Shown here piece after piece: positions 7,115 through 44,300 of a DNA stretch of 53,787 nt; within the stretch, counting starts at the first letter, position 1, and the number at the start of each line of letters is the position of its first letter. Made by a program: the position numbers and the translations under genes. Where the stretch lies: positions 1 through 53,787 of IMG/VR virus record IMGVR_UViG_3300008267_000208, one strand, 5' to 3'. Below the pieces are notes generated by a model. It searched no databases. It was given only the letters and a program-made list of their open reading frames with translations, and had not been told where the DNA came from. The stretch comes from a virus.

Positions 7115-7349
7115 CAGTGGTAGTAGTTTTAGTTGGTTCAGTAATAGTAGTAGTTAGGCCATTAAAATATTTTCTTAAAAATTCTGGATTGTACATTACA
7201 ATTTTACCAGTATATTTTGGATTACTAACTTGTTTAATTATAGTTGATTGTGAGGATAATTGAGCAGCACGATATACTTCTTTGCCTAATTGTTGTCCTG
7301 CTGCTCTTCCTAGAAAATCATACAGCGATACGAATTCTTCTTGTTTCAT
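7089..7349 (-). CDS. Small conserved-looking phage protein next to dpdA (86 aa)
   Basis: The product begins MKQEEFVSLYDFLGRAAGQQ and continues with LGKEVYRAA, then VSNPKYTGKIVMYNPEFLRKYF and a threonine-rich tail. It looks like a small helix-plus-strand protein of a kind often seen in T4-like phages without assigned function. It overlaps the start of queC by 26 nt and the end of dpdA by 4 nt, so it is translated between them. Whether it takes part in DNA modification is unknown; only the location suggests it. Confidence 0.65.
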   Translation of the reverse strand: MKQEEFVSLYDFLGRAAGQQLGKEVYRAAQLSSQSTIIKQVSNPKYTGKIVMYNPEFLRKYFNGLTTTITEPTKTTTTDESIGFPF

Positions 7350-8134
7350 AAATTATTTATTTGTTTAAATTGTTTAACATTGTAATTGAGCAATTCAATA
7401 TCAATTTCACTTAATGACATTTCAAAACATTCATTCATATTTGCTGTTGGTTTTACTTCTAAACCAAGAGTGTCATATTTTAATCCTTGAATAGTAGCCA
7501 TTACTGGATTTGAAGTATCAATTGATTCAATATATGAACTATCTTTATGATATCCAAATTCTTGAGGTACTGAACATCCAAGAAGGTGAATTCTATCATT
7601 GTCATGAATTACTTCTATGTTGTGCATTTTATTGATAGTATCAATTCTACCTAATGCTTTACCTATTGCTTTATTTTCATGTGGGTGTACTTCATTGTAG
7701 TATGAAGCACCATAACTAAATGCTATCTTTTTATATCCTAAATCTTTGTAGATTTGGTAGCAAATAACTGCTTCATATAATGCTTTTGCTTGTACAACAG
7801 CAATAAATGTTGTGTCAGGGTATTTCTCTTGATATTGAATCCATCTTTTAGCAGATACAACTGATTGTGTTTGGTCTTCCCAATAATCAGGTACAAAAAA
7901 TTCATTAGGTTGCAATGTATCTAACCAATAAAATAGTCTATCTTCACTATATGGAACACCCAATTCATGAAGTGAATTATCCATCATAATGTGTCGTCCA
8001 TTTGCTTTAGATCTCATGAAGAAGTCCTTATATTCTTCATATTGATCCATTAAATGGGGCAAGCAGTAATCATAATCATTGAATTGTAAACTTTGTTCCA
8101 ATAAACATAATGGAACTTCATGTGAAATTTTCAT
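7346..8134 (-). CDS. dpdA: DpdA-like DNA 7-deazaguanine transglycosylase (TGT fold)
   Basis: A 262-aa protein with the order of motifs of tRNA-guanine transglycosylase and its DNA-acting relatives. HIMMDNSLHELG (about 48-59) fits the substrate-binding aspartate region, then come FVPDYWED, the barrel strand FIAVVQAK (TGT GVVQG), IAFSYGA, and HLLGCSVP (TGT LMGVGxP). SIDTSNPV at 204-211 carries the likely nucleophile Asp206. It is shorter than bacterial TGT and lacks the C-terminal zinc site, as in phage DpdA proteins. With FolE, QueD, QueE and QueC encoded nearby, the likely role is replacing guanine in phage DNA with preQ0 or a relative. The transglycosylase call is from motifs, not from an alignment. 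Confidence 0.82.
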   Translation of the reverse strand: MKISHEVPLCLLEQSLQFNDYDYCLPHLMDQYEEYKDFFMRSKANGRHIMMDNSLHELGVPYSEDRLFYWLDTLQPNEFFVPDYWEDQTQSVVSAKRWIQYQEKYPDTTFIAVVQAKALYEAVICYQIYKDLGYKKIAFSYGASYYNEVHPHENKAIGKALGRIDTINKMHNIEVIHDNDRIHLLGCSVPQEFGYHKDSSYIESIDTSNPVMATIQGLKYDTLGLEVKPTANMNECFEMSLSEIDIELLNYNVKQFKQINNL

Positions 8135-8696: not shown

Positions 8697-9641
8697 TTAG
8701 TAGGTCTTTATTTCATCTTCATCAGATTTCTTTCGTTTAAAGATGGGTTGAATATAGTTGTACCATGATTTAGTTGGTTCAGAAGGTTCCACTACTGGTG
8801 GTTTCTCGTCGTATATTGCTAGTGGTTGTGGATTTTTTACTTGATTAAAAGCAAAATTAGCCGCTATAACTAAACTAATTGCTAGTGGATCAAACACCAA
8901 TATAATTAGTAAAATAAACCAGTTAATGATTTTATCCATTGGGTATCCCGTTAGCTTAGCTATATACTTGAGTGGACCTAGTTCGCCTGCTAATTCAGTT
9001 TTAGATTCGATTTCCAATATTTTCATATCTAAAGCAGTTATGCTGTCAGTTGAAGCTATTATTTTATCGTCAATTGCGTCTTTATTTTTGATAGCTGTAT
9101 TGAGTTGGGATTCAAATGCTTTTCGATTGCCTGAATTTGCTGTAGTAACAATCTGTCCTGTTTTTCTGTCTACTGATTGAGTAGTACTTCCTGTTGCTAG
9201 AGCATTTCTTAACTCACTTATATCTTTAGATAGTCCATTTTTTTCAAGTTTTCTATCTGTAAGCTGCTGTTCGAATCGTTCCTTTTTAACTTTATATACT
9301 TGAGTTTCTTTATCTACAACACCTACTTTATTGGCTGTTTCCTGATATGCATTACTTAGAAAGCCATAAATGCCAGCCGAAGTAATCAATATTAGTACTC
9401 CTAAAGCAATTGATAAATATGTTCTTAATATTTTATTTACTGTAGACCAGTATTGGTATAAGAATGAAGCGATAACTAATTTAGAAACTTCTAATGAAGC
9501 AGCCATTACCATAACCGCCATACTAGCTCCTACAAATAATTTAGATAACCCAGTAATTGAATACAGACCCGCCGAGGCACTCACGGACAAAGCCGAGAGT
9601 GCTATTAGGGTGGGTAGTATTAATTGTTTTATATTTTTCAT
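8697..9641 (-). CDS. Multi-pass membrane protein with central coiled coil
   Basis: A 314-aa protein. Hydrophobic segments lie at about residues 6-27, 35-60 and 74-97 near the N-terminus and at about 238-262 (IINWFILLIILVFDPLAISL). Between them is a ~130-residue charged, helical region (KKERFEQQLTDRKLEKNGLS and onwards) likely to form a coiled coil. A proline-rich, basic cytoplasmic tail follows. Similar proteins occur in many marine T4-like phages without known function. It follows nrdA by 3 nt, at the end of the replication transcript. Roles in lysis timing or superinfection exclusion are possible but unsupported. Confidence 0.7.
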   Translation of the reverse strand: MKNIKQLILPTLIALSALSVSASAGLYSITGLSKLFVGASMAVMVMAASLEVSKLVIASFLYQYWSTVNKILRTYLSIALGVLILITSAGIYGFLSNAYQETANKVGVVDKETQVYKVKKERFEQQLTDRKLEKNGLSKDISELRNALATGSTTQSVDRKTGQIVTTANSGNRKAFESQLNTAIKNKDAIDDKIIASTDSITALDMKILEIESKTELAGELGPLKYIAKLTGYPMDKIINWFILLIILVFDPLAISLVIAANFAFNQVKNPQPLAIYDEKPPVVEPSEPTKSWYNYIQPIFKRKKSDEDEIKTY

Positions 9642-20223: not shown

Positions 20224-20640
20224 TTATATTTTACTCAATTGGAAATGCATTCCATCTTTTCTAGTCCAAGTACCACCCCAATCAAAACCAGCATCTGTAA
20301 AACATTTTACAAATCCTGCTGACAGTACTGGTGTTTTATTAAGACCATTCCATGCTGCATTCACATCAATTGCTATGCCCCAAGAATGTAGTGACATGCT
20401 AGATAAACCTCTCTTCTTTCTAATATTAAAACATCCGTCCCATGTTTTTAATTCTTTTACGAATCCTGTTGTGATGAGATTTTTAAATGCTAGTGAAAGT
20501 GGAGCAACTAAGTCTTTATTGCAATATAATCTTTTAGGTATAACACCTATTTCTAATTCAGTTGGTACATCCCATAGAACCATATTAGATTCTTTTGTTG
20601 GATCGCCATATTTTTTTAATGCTTGTTGTGAAGTTACCAT
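20224..20640 (-). CDS. M15-family peptidase, probable endolysin
   Basis: A 138-aa zinc peptidase. SLHSWGIAIDVN holds His85 and Asp92 (H-x6-D) and DGMHFQ holds the third ligand His132, the pattern of VanY/L-alanyl-D-glutamate peptidases used as endolysins by T5-like phages. The preceding KTWDGCFNIRKKRG positions the substrate cleft, and FDWGGTWTRKDGMHF is typical of this subfamily. No signal peptide is present, so a holin would be needed; none is identified nearby. It is the last gene of the tail transcript, directly before the three-hairpin terminator. Confidence 0.88.
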   Translation of the reverse strand: MVTSQQALKKYGDPTKESNMVLWDVPTELEIGVIPKRLYCNKDLVAPLSLAFKNLITTGFVKELKTWDGCFNIRKKRGLSSMSLHSWGIAIDVNAAWNGLNKTPVLSAGFVKCFTDAGFDWGGTWTRKDGMHFQLSKI

Positions 20641-21248
20641 TATTTATAATATTTTGTGAAATCGTTTCTTAAATACTCTGAGAGCATTGGTAATTTTTGT
20701 TGTTTACTTGTTAACTCAGTTATATTTTTGTTTGTTATAAATACTTGAGATTTATCTCCTGTTAACTGCCAAGGTAAATTAAATGGTTGGTATAGTTGAT
20801 ATAGAATACTTGAATCTTTATTTACTAATTTATCGTGTGTATCTTTATTGATTTCAAGATAAATAATTTCATTGGTTTTTTTACAAAAATATCTTCTGTA
20901 TTCTCCTATTTGGTAATCGGTTTGGGTTGGAATATTAGGAGAGAAAGTTGGTATTGATATAATTTGGTCTACATCGATTTTTTGTATATCAATATATTCC
21001 GCTGTTCGAATATCTTCTTGATTTATATTTAATATTATATCTGAATTCTGGGAAATTGAAGTTGAAGAATATTCAAATACAGGAATAAGTTTTTCTGAGG
21101 GAAGATCTTGAGGGGTTCTACCCGTAAATAATTCTTTTTTAGATGTTTTCCAATAGTATCCTATGTAATTTTCTTTTGTAGATGAGTAAACATATTCACC
21201 TCCATTAGTGTATAAATTTGCTTGTATTTGAGATAAAGGATAATACAT
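20640..21248 (-). CDS. Probable tail-associated structural protein (202 aa)
   Basis: The product begins MYYPLSQIQANLYTNGGEYV, then a YSSTKENYIGYYWKTSKKEL and FTGRTPQDLPSEKLIPVFEY section, a strand-rich middle, and FCKKTNEIIYLEINKDTHDK. The style matches unannotated structural proteins from marine T4-like phages that lie near the baseplate genes. No enzymatic motif. It begins 2 nt after the split peptidase fragment and its stop overlaps the endolysin gene start by 1 nt. Confidence 0.6.
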   Translation of the reverse strand: MYYPLSQIQANLYTNGGEYVYSSTKENYIGYYWKTSKKELFTGRTPQDLPSEKLIPVFEYSSTSISQNSDIILNINQEDIRTAEYIDIQKIDVDQIISIPTFSPNIPTQTDYQIGEYRRYFCKKTNEIIYLEINKDTHDKLVNKDSSILYQLYQPFNLPWQLTGDKSQVFITNKNITELTSKQQKLPMLSEYLRNDFTKYYK

Positions 21249-21250
21249 TT

Positions 21251-21883
21251 TTAAATTCTATTTGAAACGTGAACGTGATCATCATGATTTGCAAATCCAA
21301 AAGTTAATAATGCTTTTGGATTTCCTTTTTCGACATTTTTCTTATATCCTAATCTTTGAAGAGCAGCAACAAATTCATCTATTTTTGCTCGATTAGAAGC
21401 TCTTGGGTTAACAGCTATTCCATCTATTATTGCTATATCTACTGCATCTCCAGCAGTATGGCGACTTGGAGGAGTTGATTTATGTCCGCTTATTGCGGTT
21501 GTAATACTTACTACAACTCCCGCATCTACTGCTGCTTTACTTATATCTCTTAATAAACTATCTTTTATAGGATCTTTTGAAGGTGTAGATCCTCTTACTA
21601 CTCCATCTTTAAAATTTACATTAGGATATTTAGCATTAACTGTTCTTACACCATTAGAAGGAGATGGTGGATTAGTAGTAGTAGATGAAGGTTTTGATTG
21701 ACCTTGAGGATTAATATTTTTTGATACTGTTTCAGTGTATTCTCCTTTAGATATACAATATGAATCTAAAGTAGTAACCCATTTATTATTTTCTATTTTA
21801 TGTTCTAGATTTTTTATTAAAAACTCAACTGTTTCAGGATAATTAGATGGCAGGATAATTAGATGGCAAATAAGCAGCATCAA
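21251..21883 (-). CDS. C-terminal part of tail hydrolase, M15-like peptidase (split by duplication)
   Basis: The biologically meaningful sequence starts at LPSNYPETVEFLIKNLEHKI, the in-frame continuation of the gene at 21843-24050, which ends LPSNYPAI. The shared LPSNYP is the result of a 16-bp tandem duplication (21836-21867). After a proline/serine-rich linker comes a peptidase domain with SRHTAGDAVDIAIIDG (H-x6-D) and NHDDHVHVSNRI, the zinc motifs of M15-type D,D-peptidases. The ~200-residue part would be the cell-wall-degrading tip of a baseplate or tail protein. The assigned ATG (MMLLICHLII) is read from the shifted frame and is probably artificial. Confidence 0.72.
   Translation of the reverse strand: MMLLICHLIILPSNYPETVEFLIKNLEHKIENNKWVTTLDSYCISKGEYTETVSKNINPQGQSKPSSTTTNPPSPSNGVRTVNAKYPNVNFKDGVVRGSTPSKDPIKDSLLRDISKAAVDAGVVVSITTAISGHKSTPPSRHTAGDAVDIAIIDGIAVNPRASNRAKIDEFVAALQRLGYKKNVEKGNPKALLTFGFANHDDHVHVSNRI
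21836..21867. repeat. 16-bp tandem duplication (two copies)
   Basis: The unit AGGATAATTAGATGGC occurs at 21836-21851 and again at 21852-21867, with one identical base on each flank. Because 16 is not a multiple of 3, it shifts the frame of the tail gene. Removing one copy gives a continuous ~930-codon reading frame. Confidence 0.97.
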
Positions 21884-24050
21884 TTAAAAACTTACTATTA
21901 ATTTTCATACCTGAAAGTCCATCCATAGTTAAAGATAAATTGAATGGAATGAATCCAGTTCCTGGTTGGAGATTGGGTTTTAGTGTTTTAGGATCTGCAC
22001 CTTTTTTTACTAATTCATAATTTACATATGCATCGTGATAAAGTTGCTCATATTTAATTAAAGTAGTTATAGAATCTTTATAAGTATCGATTTCATCATC
22101 TGAATAAGTAAATTTTTCAAGGGATACTAAATATTTTACAAATGGCACATATACTCCTTCAAATTGATTTTTCATTTGAGCATATATGTCTTCATATTTT
22201 GTTACTAAATCTACCTTTTTAGTAGATCCATCATTTGTGTTTGAAATTAAATCTTTATATCTATCTTTTAATCCATTATTTAATCGGGATAAAGCAGTAG
22301 CGTTTTCTCCAACTGCTGAGCTATTAGCAGCAGCTGCTACTGTTATCATAGTAGACATAGCAGGAGAAAGTTCAGTTTTGAATCTAAAATCTCTTATAAA
22401 ACCTGACTGGTTATTATCTGGATTATATCCATATAGATAAAATTTAGCGTATTTATTATCTATATCATACGTATTTGATTGAATGCTTCCTGATCGAGCA
22501 AAGTGTTCTATTAATTTTTCACTATTAGGAAAAGGATTTTTATCAATGATTTTTATAGTATTGGTTATTTCATCAACAAATACTTCTAACTGATTCATTC
22601 CTCCTAATGCTCCATTAATTCCACTTACAATGCTTTTTAAAAAATCTATTAGAGCTACACTATTGGTTTCAACATCTACTAATTGATCAAGTTTATCTAA
22701 AATAAATCTAAAATTAACATATATGTTCATTATTTGACCATATTCTGATTTGCTAGAAGTGGAAATTTCAGAAAAAATAAATGGTTCTCCATCGGGTAAA
22801 AAATTATAAGTAAAGTTATTATCTATTAATACTTTACTAACAACGCACACTCTAGGATCTACACTTATTTGTAAAGGATTTAAATACATTAAATTAGATT
22901 CAGTATCGTAGTCAAATTTCATTAACGGAAGAGTTTTGTCTCCTGTTGTTACCTGATACATTACATATTTTTCTATGAATTCTAGAAAATTTCCTAGTCT
23001 GCAGTAATATTGGTGGAAGTTTGATGCTTTAATTGCATCTTTTCTTATTCCATCTACCGTTCCCGTTGTATTAATAGTAGGATTACTAAAATCAAAATTC
23101 CTTACAGTATCCGAACCATAAGGAATAAGGCTGCTCATAGTTTTAAGATATTGACCTATGTTGCTTCTAAAGGAGGCAACTTCAATTAATTCTGTTGTAG
23201 TAAGAGGAGCTCCACTTGATGATATAGCTGATGGGGTACCATTAACCATATTTGGGGAGAGAATATTGGTTTTAAAAGACTCAATTACGTCTCCAATACT
23301 TACTAAATCTAAAGTAATATCATAACTTCCATCTACATTAAAAGACCAATGAATATTGGAAACTTTAGCAAACATGGCATCATAATTTCCTTGAGAAGTT
23401 TTACGTTTTTGATTTATTTTTTTAAGAAATTCACCATATGAATTGCCTCCTTTTAAAAAATCACTTGCTAAACTATTATCTAAATCAGATCCTTTTTGTA
23501 ATACTCCATCATTAGTATAGTACATAGAATGTCCCCATTCTAATAAAACACTAAATCCTAATCTTAAATATAAAACATCTATAATATCAAATTGACTTTT
23601 ATTGAAAGCTTTAATTTGTACTGTTGCTCTTCTTAATGAACCTCTATTTTCATGTTTTATATGAGCAGATTTTATACCCATCATTGGGCGTAAACCAAAC
23701 TCTGTTCCCCCAATGCCGTATGCTGTAGATCCTAATATGCTGTTTCTTTCTGAAATTCCACTAAATAGTGTATTTCCACTATCTGATGTTCCATTAAACA
23801 GAACAAATCTTTCAGCTAATATATTATCTGATATTCCATCAATCTCTCTTAATGATATATTATTAATAATATCTTGCTTAATAATGTCTGTTGAAGATAC
23901 TAATTTTACCCATGAAGTATTAGCATTTAAATATACTATTTCTTCTGGGGTTCTTGTGCCTCCATCAACATATCCTGAACCATATATTTTTTGTCGTTGG
24001 TCAACCTGTTCATTTATTTCTTTGGGGAAACCTTCACCTAATAAATTCAT
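21843..24050 (-). CDS. Large tail/baseplate protein, N-terminal part of a split tail hydrolase
   Basis: A 735-aa structural protein starting MNLLGEGFPKEINEQVDQRQ. It contains AFNKSQFDIIDVLYLRLGFS and LLEWGHSMYYTNDGVLQKGS, a segment common in baseplate or hub proteins of T4-like marine phages, followed by SNIHWSFNVDGSYDITLDLV. Later regions are mixed, ending SLTMDGLSGMKINSKFLIDA and then YLPSNYPAI. Without the 16-bp duplication it would run on into the M15 peptidase domain at 21251-21850, making a hub-plus-hydrolase protein analogous in role to T4 gp5. It lies 3 nt after a LysM/gp53-like gene. Confidence 0.75.
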   Translation of the reverse strand: MNLLGEGFPKEINEQVDQRQKIYGSGYVDGGTRTPEEIVYLNANTSWVKLVSSTDIIKQDIINNISLREIDGISDNILAERFVLFNGTSDSGNTLFSGISERNSILGSTAYGIGGTEFGLRPMMGIKSAHIKHENRGSLRRATVQIKAFNKSQFDIIDVLYLRLGFSVLLEWGHSMYYTNDGVLQKGSDLDNSLASDFLKGGNSYGEFLKKINQKRKTSQGNYDAMFAKVSNIHWSFNVDGSYDITLDLVSIGDVIESFKTNILSPNMVNGTPSAISSSGAPLTTTELIEVASFRSNIGQYLKTMSSLIPYGSDTVRNFDFSNPTINTTGTVDGIRKDAIKASNFHQYYCRLGNFLEFIEKYVMYQVTTGDKTLPLMKFDYDTESNLMYLNPLQISVDPRVCVVSKVLIDNNFTYNFLPDGEPFIFSEISTSSKSEYGQIMNIYVNFRFILDKLDQLVDVETNSVALIDFLKSIVSGINGALGGMNQLEVFVDEITNTIKIIDKNPFPNSEKLIEHFARSGSIQSNTYDIDNKYAKFYLYGYNPDNNQSGFIRDFRFKTELSPAMSTMITVAAAANSSAVGENATALSRLNNGLKDRYKDLISNTNDGSTKKVDLVTKYEDIYAQMKNQFEGVYVPFVKYLVSLEKFTYSDDEIDTYKDSITTLIKYEQLYHDAYVNYELVKKGADPKTLKPNLQPGTGFIPFNLSLTMDGLSGMKINSKFLIDAAYLPSNYPAI

Positions 24051-41361: not shown

Positions 41362-44300
41362 TTACATGAAAGTTGCTAACATTTTTACTTGCCATCCCGA
41401 TGGAGTAGAAGCTCCTGTGTTTATTTGGATCTGACCTGATACTATAGACGAAGCGAATGTAATTGTGGAAGTATCACCTATATCTACTGTTGAATTATCG
41501 TAGTAAGATACTGTTGTGCCATTCCATGAAGTTACAAATTCACCTGCTCTAGAATTAGATCCATTGTATATTGTATATTTACCAAATGCTGAGGTAAATG
41601 AACCTGTGTTTAGTGTAAATAAGTTGTTTATACCAGGACTTGTACTTGGTGAAATTGCGAAAAAGTCGGTTAATGTAGCATCTAATGTTAATGTTTGAGC
41701 TATATTAAAGTTAGGAGAATATGATGCAGTAGCAGCTGTACCAGCAAATGTTGATGAATTTGAACCAGTATAGCTGTTAAATGAAGATGTTGTTACAAAA
41801 TCACCACTTGGGCCTCCTCCAGTTGCACTAATAGTAACAACTCCTATTCCGTTTGTTGGTGAAATTGATATTCCACTACCTGTTAAAATTTGTGATACAC
41901 CTGATCCGCCTCCACCAAATGCGGATGAAGCGGTATAGTAAAGTTGACCGGTTGTTGAGTCAATAGTTACAACATTTGCTTGGTTTACTGATGTTAAGCC
42001 TCGTACAACTAAACTACCGCTAATATTTAGTGAACCAGTCATATTATGCTGGTTATTTGAATTTAGTTCAAATTTTCTATTAGCATCTGAATCAAAACCA
42101 CCTGCAAAAAACTGAATAGGCTTGTTAGGTGATGCATTTCCTATATGAAGATGACTTCCCGTAGTATATAAGTAAGCATCATTTGCATTACCTACAGGGC
42201 CAGTAAAGTTACTACTATTGATACCCATATCAATATAGTTACCATTCTCATCTCCATTATTAGCAGTTGCTACAACGTCTGATGATGCTACAGCTCCTGC
42301 ATTAGTATTATGGATATTAAGCTGTAAATAGTTATTTAAATTACCTTTACCACTTATTACATTAAATGAAGTTGGGTGAGTTTGTTGAACATATAGTGCT
42401 TCAGGATTAGCTGTTGTATTAACATCTGAATTAATAATAATACTTGTAGAACCTGATTGATATATTGAACTGGTTGCTAAAGTAGTATCTGTAATGAAGT
42501 ATGGAACATGTGGGGCTTTTCCACCTAAGATATTAGAAGCAGTTCTTGCAAAACTAGCTGTACCAAGTAAAGATCCAGTAAATCCACCAGTTGTAATAAC
42601 AGATCCTGTTATATTGATTTGATTTTGAGTAGCAAAATTTAATGCTTCTGTACCATCTAGGTATGTTATATATCTATCCTCATAATCAATAGTTATATTT
42701 CCAGTTGAGTCTTTTAATTCTCTTCTTCTATATAATATAGATTCATTACCTGAATCATCATATATAATTCTATTTTCAAAATCAACAGAAACAATACCTG
42801 CAGTATCATTTAATTGGGTTTGCAGTTGATATGTATCTGAGGTATTAATTTGCAGAATTTGACCTGAAGTACCAGTGGGTAGACCATTTAAAGCATATGA
42901 AGCTGTATCTGAATAGCTACTAGATAAACTATACGATGATGATTCAGCAAATGAACTACTTAAACTATAAGAACTTGATAAAGCATAAGATGAGGAAATG
43001 GCGTAGCTTGATGATATGGTATATGAACTACTTAGAGCATATGAAGCACTTAAAGCAGGATTTGCACTATTGAATACTGATCCAGTTACATATGATGCTG
43101 TTATAGCTTGAGAAGCCCAAGAAGCCGTACCAATTAATTGTCCTGTAAATGAACCTGTAAATGAACCTGTATTACTTAAAAATTGGTCTACTCGATTTGC
43201 TGTTACAATTAATGATGGAATTGCAGGAGAGGCATCGATAGCACCTGAGCCTGTAGAATATAATCTTATGTTATTATTTGTAGCCGCCCATATCAATTGG
43301 AAATAATCACCCGCAGAAGCATCTACAAACCAATTCCAAGCCGCTAATGCTTTATCATTTGCACCACCTGCTAATGTTACAGCTGTATTTGTTTCTGGGA
43401 GGTCAGTTCCATTTTTTCTAAGCCATATATATGCTATACCATTAGTACCTGTAGTTTTATCAAGTTGGGCAGAAAACTGGATATCATATACTCCAGCATT
43501 CTCCATTTTAATGTAAGTATTATATGGGTTTGTAGATCCAGATAATGATACTCCATTTGAAATAGGAGCATTATTAAGAGACATTGAATATACTGCACCT
43601 ACTGTACCTATAGTTTGAATAGTAGTATCATAAAAACTACCATAAGATCCGGTTGCTGTATTATTTCCTCCACCTCCTCCGGTTGAGCTAATAGTAATAC
43701 CACCTACACCATCATCAGATAAACTAACATTGGAACCTTGTTTTAGATTTAAAACAGTTTGTGATCCATTATTTGTACCATTAGTTTGAAGTGTGATTGA
43801 AGTACCGGTACCTCCACCACCTCCACCACCTACACCTCTAAATAAACCTCCAGGTAATATAGTAAAGTCAGCAGCTACTGCAAATGTACCATCCCCTTTA
43901 ATTACTATAGCTCCTAAATAAATAGCATTCGCTGCTGTATTGGGGGCTTCAGAGAAAGTTTCAATGTTTAGATTAGCAATAGCCTCTGATTCGCTTGAAT
44001 ATATTGCATTACCATAATAAACTACTATGGCTTTAGATACTGAGTTTGGATACCAAAATACTCTTTGAGTTGACCAGCTATTATTAGCTACACTCGTTAA
44101 AGTACCGTTAAGTGAGTATTGAGTTGGATCAATTGTGGTGTATCCTGTTCCATTATTTGTATCATATACCCAATCAGATCCTGATTGTCTATATCTAAAT
44201 ATTTTAGAAACATTTGTTCCTGGATCAGTTACGTATGATGGATTATTTGGATCTGTTGGGTAATTAGCTCCATCGGCAAATGAAGTACCACTTCCGACTG

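Follow-up and report, generated by a model that had tools for sequence, protein, structure and literature searches.

What does it mean that a phage tail gene changes reading frame at a short, perfect repeat? The window analysed here is the whole 53,787-nucleotide stretch of IMG/VR record IMGVR_UViG_3300008267_000208, and a first-pass annotation had proposed that a 16-bp duplication in it splits a natively single gene for a tail hub and its hydrolase. Three origins were offered, namely a reversible slippage switch controlling the tail-tip enzyme, a fixed mutation, or an assembly artefact. If the switch were true it would be a new way of tuning phage entry; the evidence described below instead favours a broken copy of an ordinary gene.

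Results

The duplication and the two reading frames

Two adjoining copies of AGGATAATTAGATGGC lie at positions 21836-21851 and 21852-21867, back to back as previously described. With a further 2 bp, the whole periodic tract at 21835-21868 (minus strand) comprises 34 bp with a period of 16 and 100% identity. This tandem match-run is not due to chance. For periods of 10-60, a run like the observed one (18 matches at period 16) has an expected count of about 3e-4 in the window, and the longest run seen in 40 Markov-1 simulated sequences was 12. There is only one equal match-run elsewhere in the window, a perfect 12-bp tandem of 2.5 copies at 43142-43171, which adds whole codons within a 1403-aa ORF and is the same in the one-copy contig described below.

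The 5′ part of the split gene (24050..21843, minus strand) encodes 735 residues of a putative baseplate or tail hub protein, an assignment made from the ORF, its relatives and low-confidence AF2/Foldseek results. This frame reads ...DAAYLPSNYP, after which the second copy gives AI and a stop, such that residues 1-733 are native and the last two are read from the duplicated copy. The second frame, which holds the 3′ part of the gene (21883..21251, minus strand), reads the repeat as LPSNYP and continues ETVEFLIKN...HDDHVHVSNRI. When the repeat is counted once, 733 and 194 residues join into a single frame of 927 aa. The PAI-stop, the read-through into LPSNYPETV with one copy and the fused protein of about 930 aa that had been noted earlier are all recovered in this analysis. 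The view that the second frame has no credible start needs some adjustment, as an internal ATG (21880) and a TTG (21883) are present as its sole possible starts, but the context of the ATG is indeed weak. It sits inside the hub frame, 37 nt before that frame ends. Scored on its upstream sequence, it ranks with the lowest-scoring quarter of a set of 41 presumed starts from the window, a level that 15% of random ATGs also reach. Reinitiation may occur there, although the hub would still be without its own end.

The hub and its C-terminal domain

Searches of Pfam, PHROGs and NCBIfam did not place the hub in any usable family. An AF2 model of the one-copy form (mean pLDDT 57) has Foldseek neighbours that are largely gp27/VgrG/Mu gp44-type hubs, all of them weak matches (E >= 0.006). 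For the C-terminal domain, alignment, AF2 and Foldseek together point to an M15-like zinc peptidase domain (clan MD, Hedgehog/DD-peptidase fold) at 21254..21625 on the minus strand. Its 124 residues carry the motifs SRHTAGDAVD and HDDHVH, which contain the M15 zinc ligand patterns S-x-H-x3-G-x-A-x-D and H-x-H, and the SRH, AVD and H-x2-H-x-H positions are invariant in all eight aligned sequences. The domain was modelled confidently (pLDDT 87). Its best Foldseek neighbours include Sonic Hedgehog, MepA and the zinc DD-peptidase 1lbu, and VanX ranks below these, all at E = 0.03-4.7. The earlier label of M15 peptidase can be kept at the level of motif and, more tentatively, of fold, but not as a Pfam assignment, as the M15 models fall below the cut-off on this domain (E = 0.21).

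Several side observations were also recorded. On a shared hub, the C-terminal enzyme is swapped among relatives (seen in the C-terminal thirds of the hub ORFs of L002, L004, L007, L011, L013 and L031), the types seen being VanY carboxypeptidase, SleB-type Hydrolase_2, M23, phage tail lysozyme-like and M15-like. Shortly downstream of the hub, the window carries a second, separate M15-type peptidase gene that is endolysin-like (20224-20640; Pfam Peptidase_M15_4, E = 6e-15). In most relatives the hub is followed by a gene that lies at 20640-21248 in the window; L023 has it twice (7169-7834 and 8924-9556), the duplicate copies being interleaved with two similar genes (MPIIAEFTLTVS.. and MAISAEFTLTMS..).

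A near-identical contig with one copy

Without recourse to reads, an apparent frame break can be tested against a second, near-identical contig. The only near-identity carriers of this hub gene known in IMG/VR from this analysis are the window itself and IMGVR_UViG_3300008459_000215 (32,034 bp; G001, locus L003). Compared base by base, the latter equals window positions 21738-53787 with zero substitutions and the same last right-hand base, and the sole difference is that it has one 16-bp copy instead of two. The shared right-hand end and the lack of substitutions suggest that the two contigs come from the same or sister samples. In the one-copy contig the hub frame stays open through the site to the contig end, which lies 98 bp past the duplication site and precedes the M15-like domain. 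The one-copy allele has only 2 bp (TG) of flanking microhomology.

The two-copy junction was not found in any other IMG/VR contig. An exact 41-base probe for a left-hand partner contig from the one-copy sample had no IMG/VR match, and the flank plus repeat had no match in GTDB genomes. Other 18-mer matches (L024-L027) were put aside as probable chance matches, and only their ORFs were listed.

Relatives at the junction

At 30-60% identity, hub relatives comprise 14 further IMG/VR contigs found with the hub query, L023 found with the C-terminal-half query, and the Flavobacterium phages immuto. Judging by these Flavobacterium phage relatives, the host probably belongs to the Bacteroidota. With the M15 domain alone as query, a further nine loci were recovered, of which five have a hub-like N-terminal part. 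The junction could be placed by tblastn in 19 hub-related loci besides the window, these being the one-copy contig and 18 others, including the near-duplicates L005/L006/L007 and L016/L017. This placement leaves out L009, which ends before the junction, and L032 and L033, where the short query had no match but hub and C-terminus share one ORF. We see a single open frame with no stops in 19/19 placed loci, and the repeat is present at the junction in none of them.

Directly after LPxNYP, a block of the form (E)FLIKNxxHxIENNKWxTxxES is recognisable in all 19 loci and is strongly conserved in the closer ones. In the window it corresponds to residues 734-765, ETVEFLIKNLEHKIENNKWVTTLDSYCISKGE, at 21740..21835 on the minus strand, and in the one-copy model, with modest pLDDT, it is predicted to form a β-hairpin (strands 737-748 and 751-761). 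By alignment and model, the hub region closes with this conserved block, which the duplication removes, as the two-copy hub frame stops ahead of it.

Some relatives do divide this gene, at other places. Three lineages split the hub in its N-terminal half into two ORFs, within about residues 263-449, each second ORF having its own ATG. The last hub residue of ORF 1 and the first of ORF 2 are 316/348 in L012 (6001-9055), 266/347 in L014 (5995-9818) and 263/449 in L016/L017 (5986-9665). In L010 and L023 the hub ORF covers residues 1-763/764 and thus retains the 734-763 block, with separate genes after it, that of L010 being transglycosylase-like. None of the relatives with a divided gene is split at residue 733, and because the break in the window precedes a block that is conserved in the placed loci, it does not lie where relatives split the gene. 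Two-gene arrangements do occur, yet they leave a break at 733 unexplained.

It had been proposed that the fused form be sought in related phages, and the hydrolase is indeed found in the hub frame in L031, L032, L033, L036, L039, L004, L007, L011 and immuto. In the window as deposited, the hydrolase domain and the hub are in different frames. The window was also compared with the ORFs of a relative, G005 (76.8 kb), where about 43 ORFs match and the hub alone is spread over two frames, the change of frame falling at 21852-21853. Judged by this ORF comparison, the duplication is the single lesion in the window. The near-identical contig and the open frames of the relatives bear out the proposal of a natively single gene: on the sequences compared, this is one continuous hub-hydrolase gene, which the extra copy splits.

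Discussion

The second 16-bp copy was most likely, though by no means certainly, made by assembly, and the native gene would be continuous and of about 927 aa; we infer assembly rather than mutation as the source. Two contig ends sharing 16-18 bp may have been abutted rather than overlapped, or a branch may have been mis-resolved. The duplication would then be without function, and the phage would presumably produce the fusion, in which a gp27/VgrG-like baseplate hub bears a C-terminal M15-like peptidoglycan peptidase in a single frame. Several observations agree with an assembly origin: the one-copy contig matches window 21738-53787 in everything but the 16 bp, it ends 98 bp past the site as though the spot were hard to assemble, and the two-copy junction is seen in no other IMG/VR contig. 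The placed loci are open through the junction, L031 has hub and C-terminus adjacent in one ORF, and only the hub is split between frames relative to G005. The baseplate hub should be essential in contractile-tail phages, and because the two-copy form loses from it a block kept by relatives, that form is implausible as the main one. There are points that fit less well. A clean duplication without Ns and with 2-bp microhomology also fits genuine replication slippage, and assemblers usually retain the majority path. The end of the one-copy contig could also mean that genomes of both copy numbers were truly present, and it does not lie exactly where a simple branch would end at a commonly used k-mer size; with 97 bases beyond the shared 18-bp word, k would have to be 116, an even number, and a de Bruijn branch end was rejected as giving no clean fit. 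A genuine, private loss-of-function duplication, arising by slippage at the TG microhomology in part of the phage population, is a less probable but quite possible origin. Such genomes would survive transiently or by complementation in mixed infections. The perfect copies with 2-bp flanking identity and the lack of any other substitution over the shared 32 kb are as expected of one recent mutation, and the break of the other contig near the site could mean that both alleles are present. However, an allele that deletes conserved hub sequence together with the enzyme should be selected against, and assembly normally reports the commoner allele.

The remaining explanations are all improbable. A reversible switch, with the tail-tip enzyme on with one copy and off with two, is very unlikely. 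It would agree with the occurrence of both copy numbers in otherwise identical contigs, though the two-copy contig may itself be an artefact, and deletion between tandem copies of 16-18 bp is easy in principle. The off direction would be rare, however, as a copy would have to be gained from just 2 bp of flanking identity in the one-copy form. The off state would lose the conserved hub end as well as the enzyme. The slippage-permitting tract of a phase-variable contingency gene is absent from the ON allele, and no such tract is conserved in relatives. A literature search on slipped-strand phase variation of phage tail genes found nothing relevant. We consider it very unlikely that a real two-copy allele persists at appreciable frequency in the phage population and reverts by slippage, leaving some of the virions with hubs that lack the terminal peptidase. 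It is slightly harder still to credit two genes, a 735-aa hub and a separate M15-like protein made from ATG 21880. The gene is divided in some relatives (after residue 763 in L010 and L023, and within ~263-449 in L012, L014 and L016/L017) and an ATG is available in the second frame, but no relative is split at 733, the later-split ones keep 734-763 on the hub, the ATG context is weak, and the one-copy contig is continuous through the site. Least credible of all is translational recoding, wherein bypass of the 16-nt repeat between matched CCT codons, or a +1 shift, restores the fusion. The duplication places matching take-off and landing codons 16 nt from each other and a stop shortly afterwards, a superficial likeness to T4 gene 60 (PMC11194080). 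Against this, RNA folding at the site is no better than for shuffled sequences (z +0.84 and +0.48), the stop lies two codons past the take-off codon rather than adjacent to it, and no slippery +1 motif was seen in the overlap.

In short, the one-off duplication in this record almost certainly stems from faulty assembly or an isolated mutation rather than from a switch. Of the three origins first offered, artefact and mutation remain, and the switch is the least supported, given the 2-bp microhomology and the lack of a repeat in relatives. Whether artefact or private null variant, the duplication is not a new system. In practice, annotators of this record should merge its 735-aa ‘tail protein’ and its separate ‘M15 peptidase’ into a single gene of about 927 aa.

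Comparison with known systems

Bypassing in gene 60 of T4 relies on stem-loops and a signal from the nascent peptide, with the stop directly adjoining the take-off codon (PMC11194080). The likeness in the window is a repeated codon flanking a gap that holds a stop; the window differs in having no stem-loops, in that its gap is a perfect duplication, and in that the arrangement is found in no other locus. The hubs T4 gp27, VgrG and Mu gp44 are weak Foldseek neighbours of the one-copy model, with no family match at the sequence level. The closest M15 domain is that of L031 (IMGVR_UViG_3300017784_002723), where the hub match ends at base 2902 and the C-terminal match begins at 2903 within one ORF of at least 1162 aa. 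Its C-terminal part is 55% identical over 198 aligned positions and its peptidase domain 65%, whereas it has no duplication and a differing hub sequence (33-44% identical). Flavobacterium phage vB_FspM_immuto_2-6A encodes a 938-aa carboxypeptidase-hub (QQO91917.1) that aligns at 26% identity with 99% of the query. It differs from the window in being an intact single gene, in its distant sequence and in having a VanY-type rather than an M15-like enzyme. Its gene order resembles that of the window, running from the tape measure through a small gene, a large gene and a 101-108 aa gene to the hub, and it carries its C-terminal D-Ala-D-Ala carboxypeptidase (VanY, E = 3e-11) in the frame of the hub.
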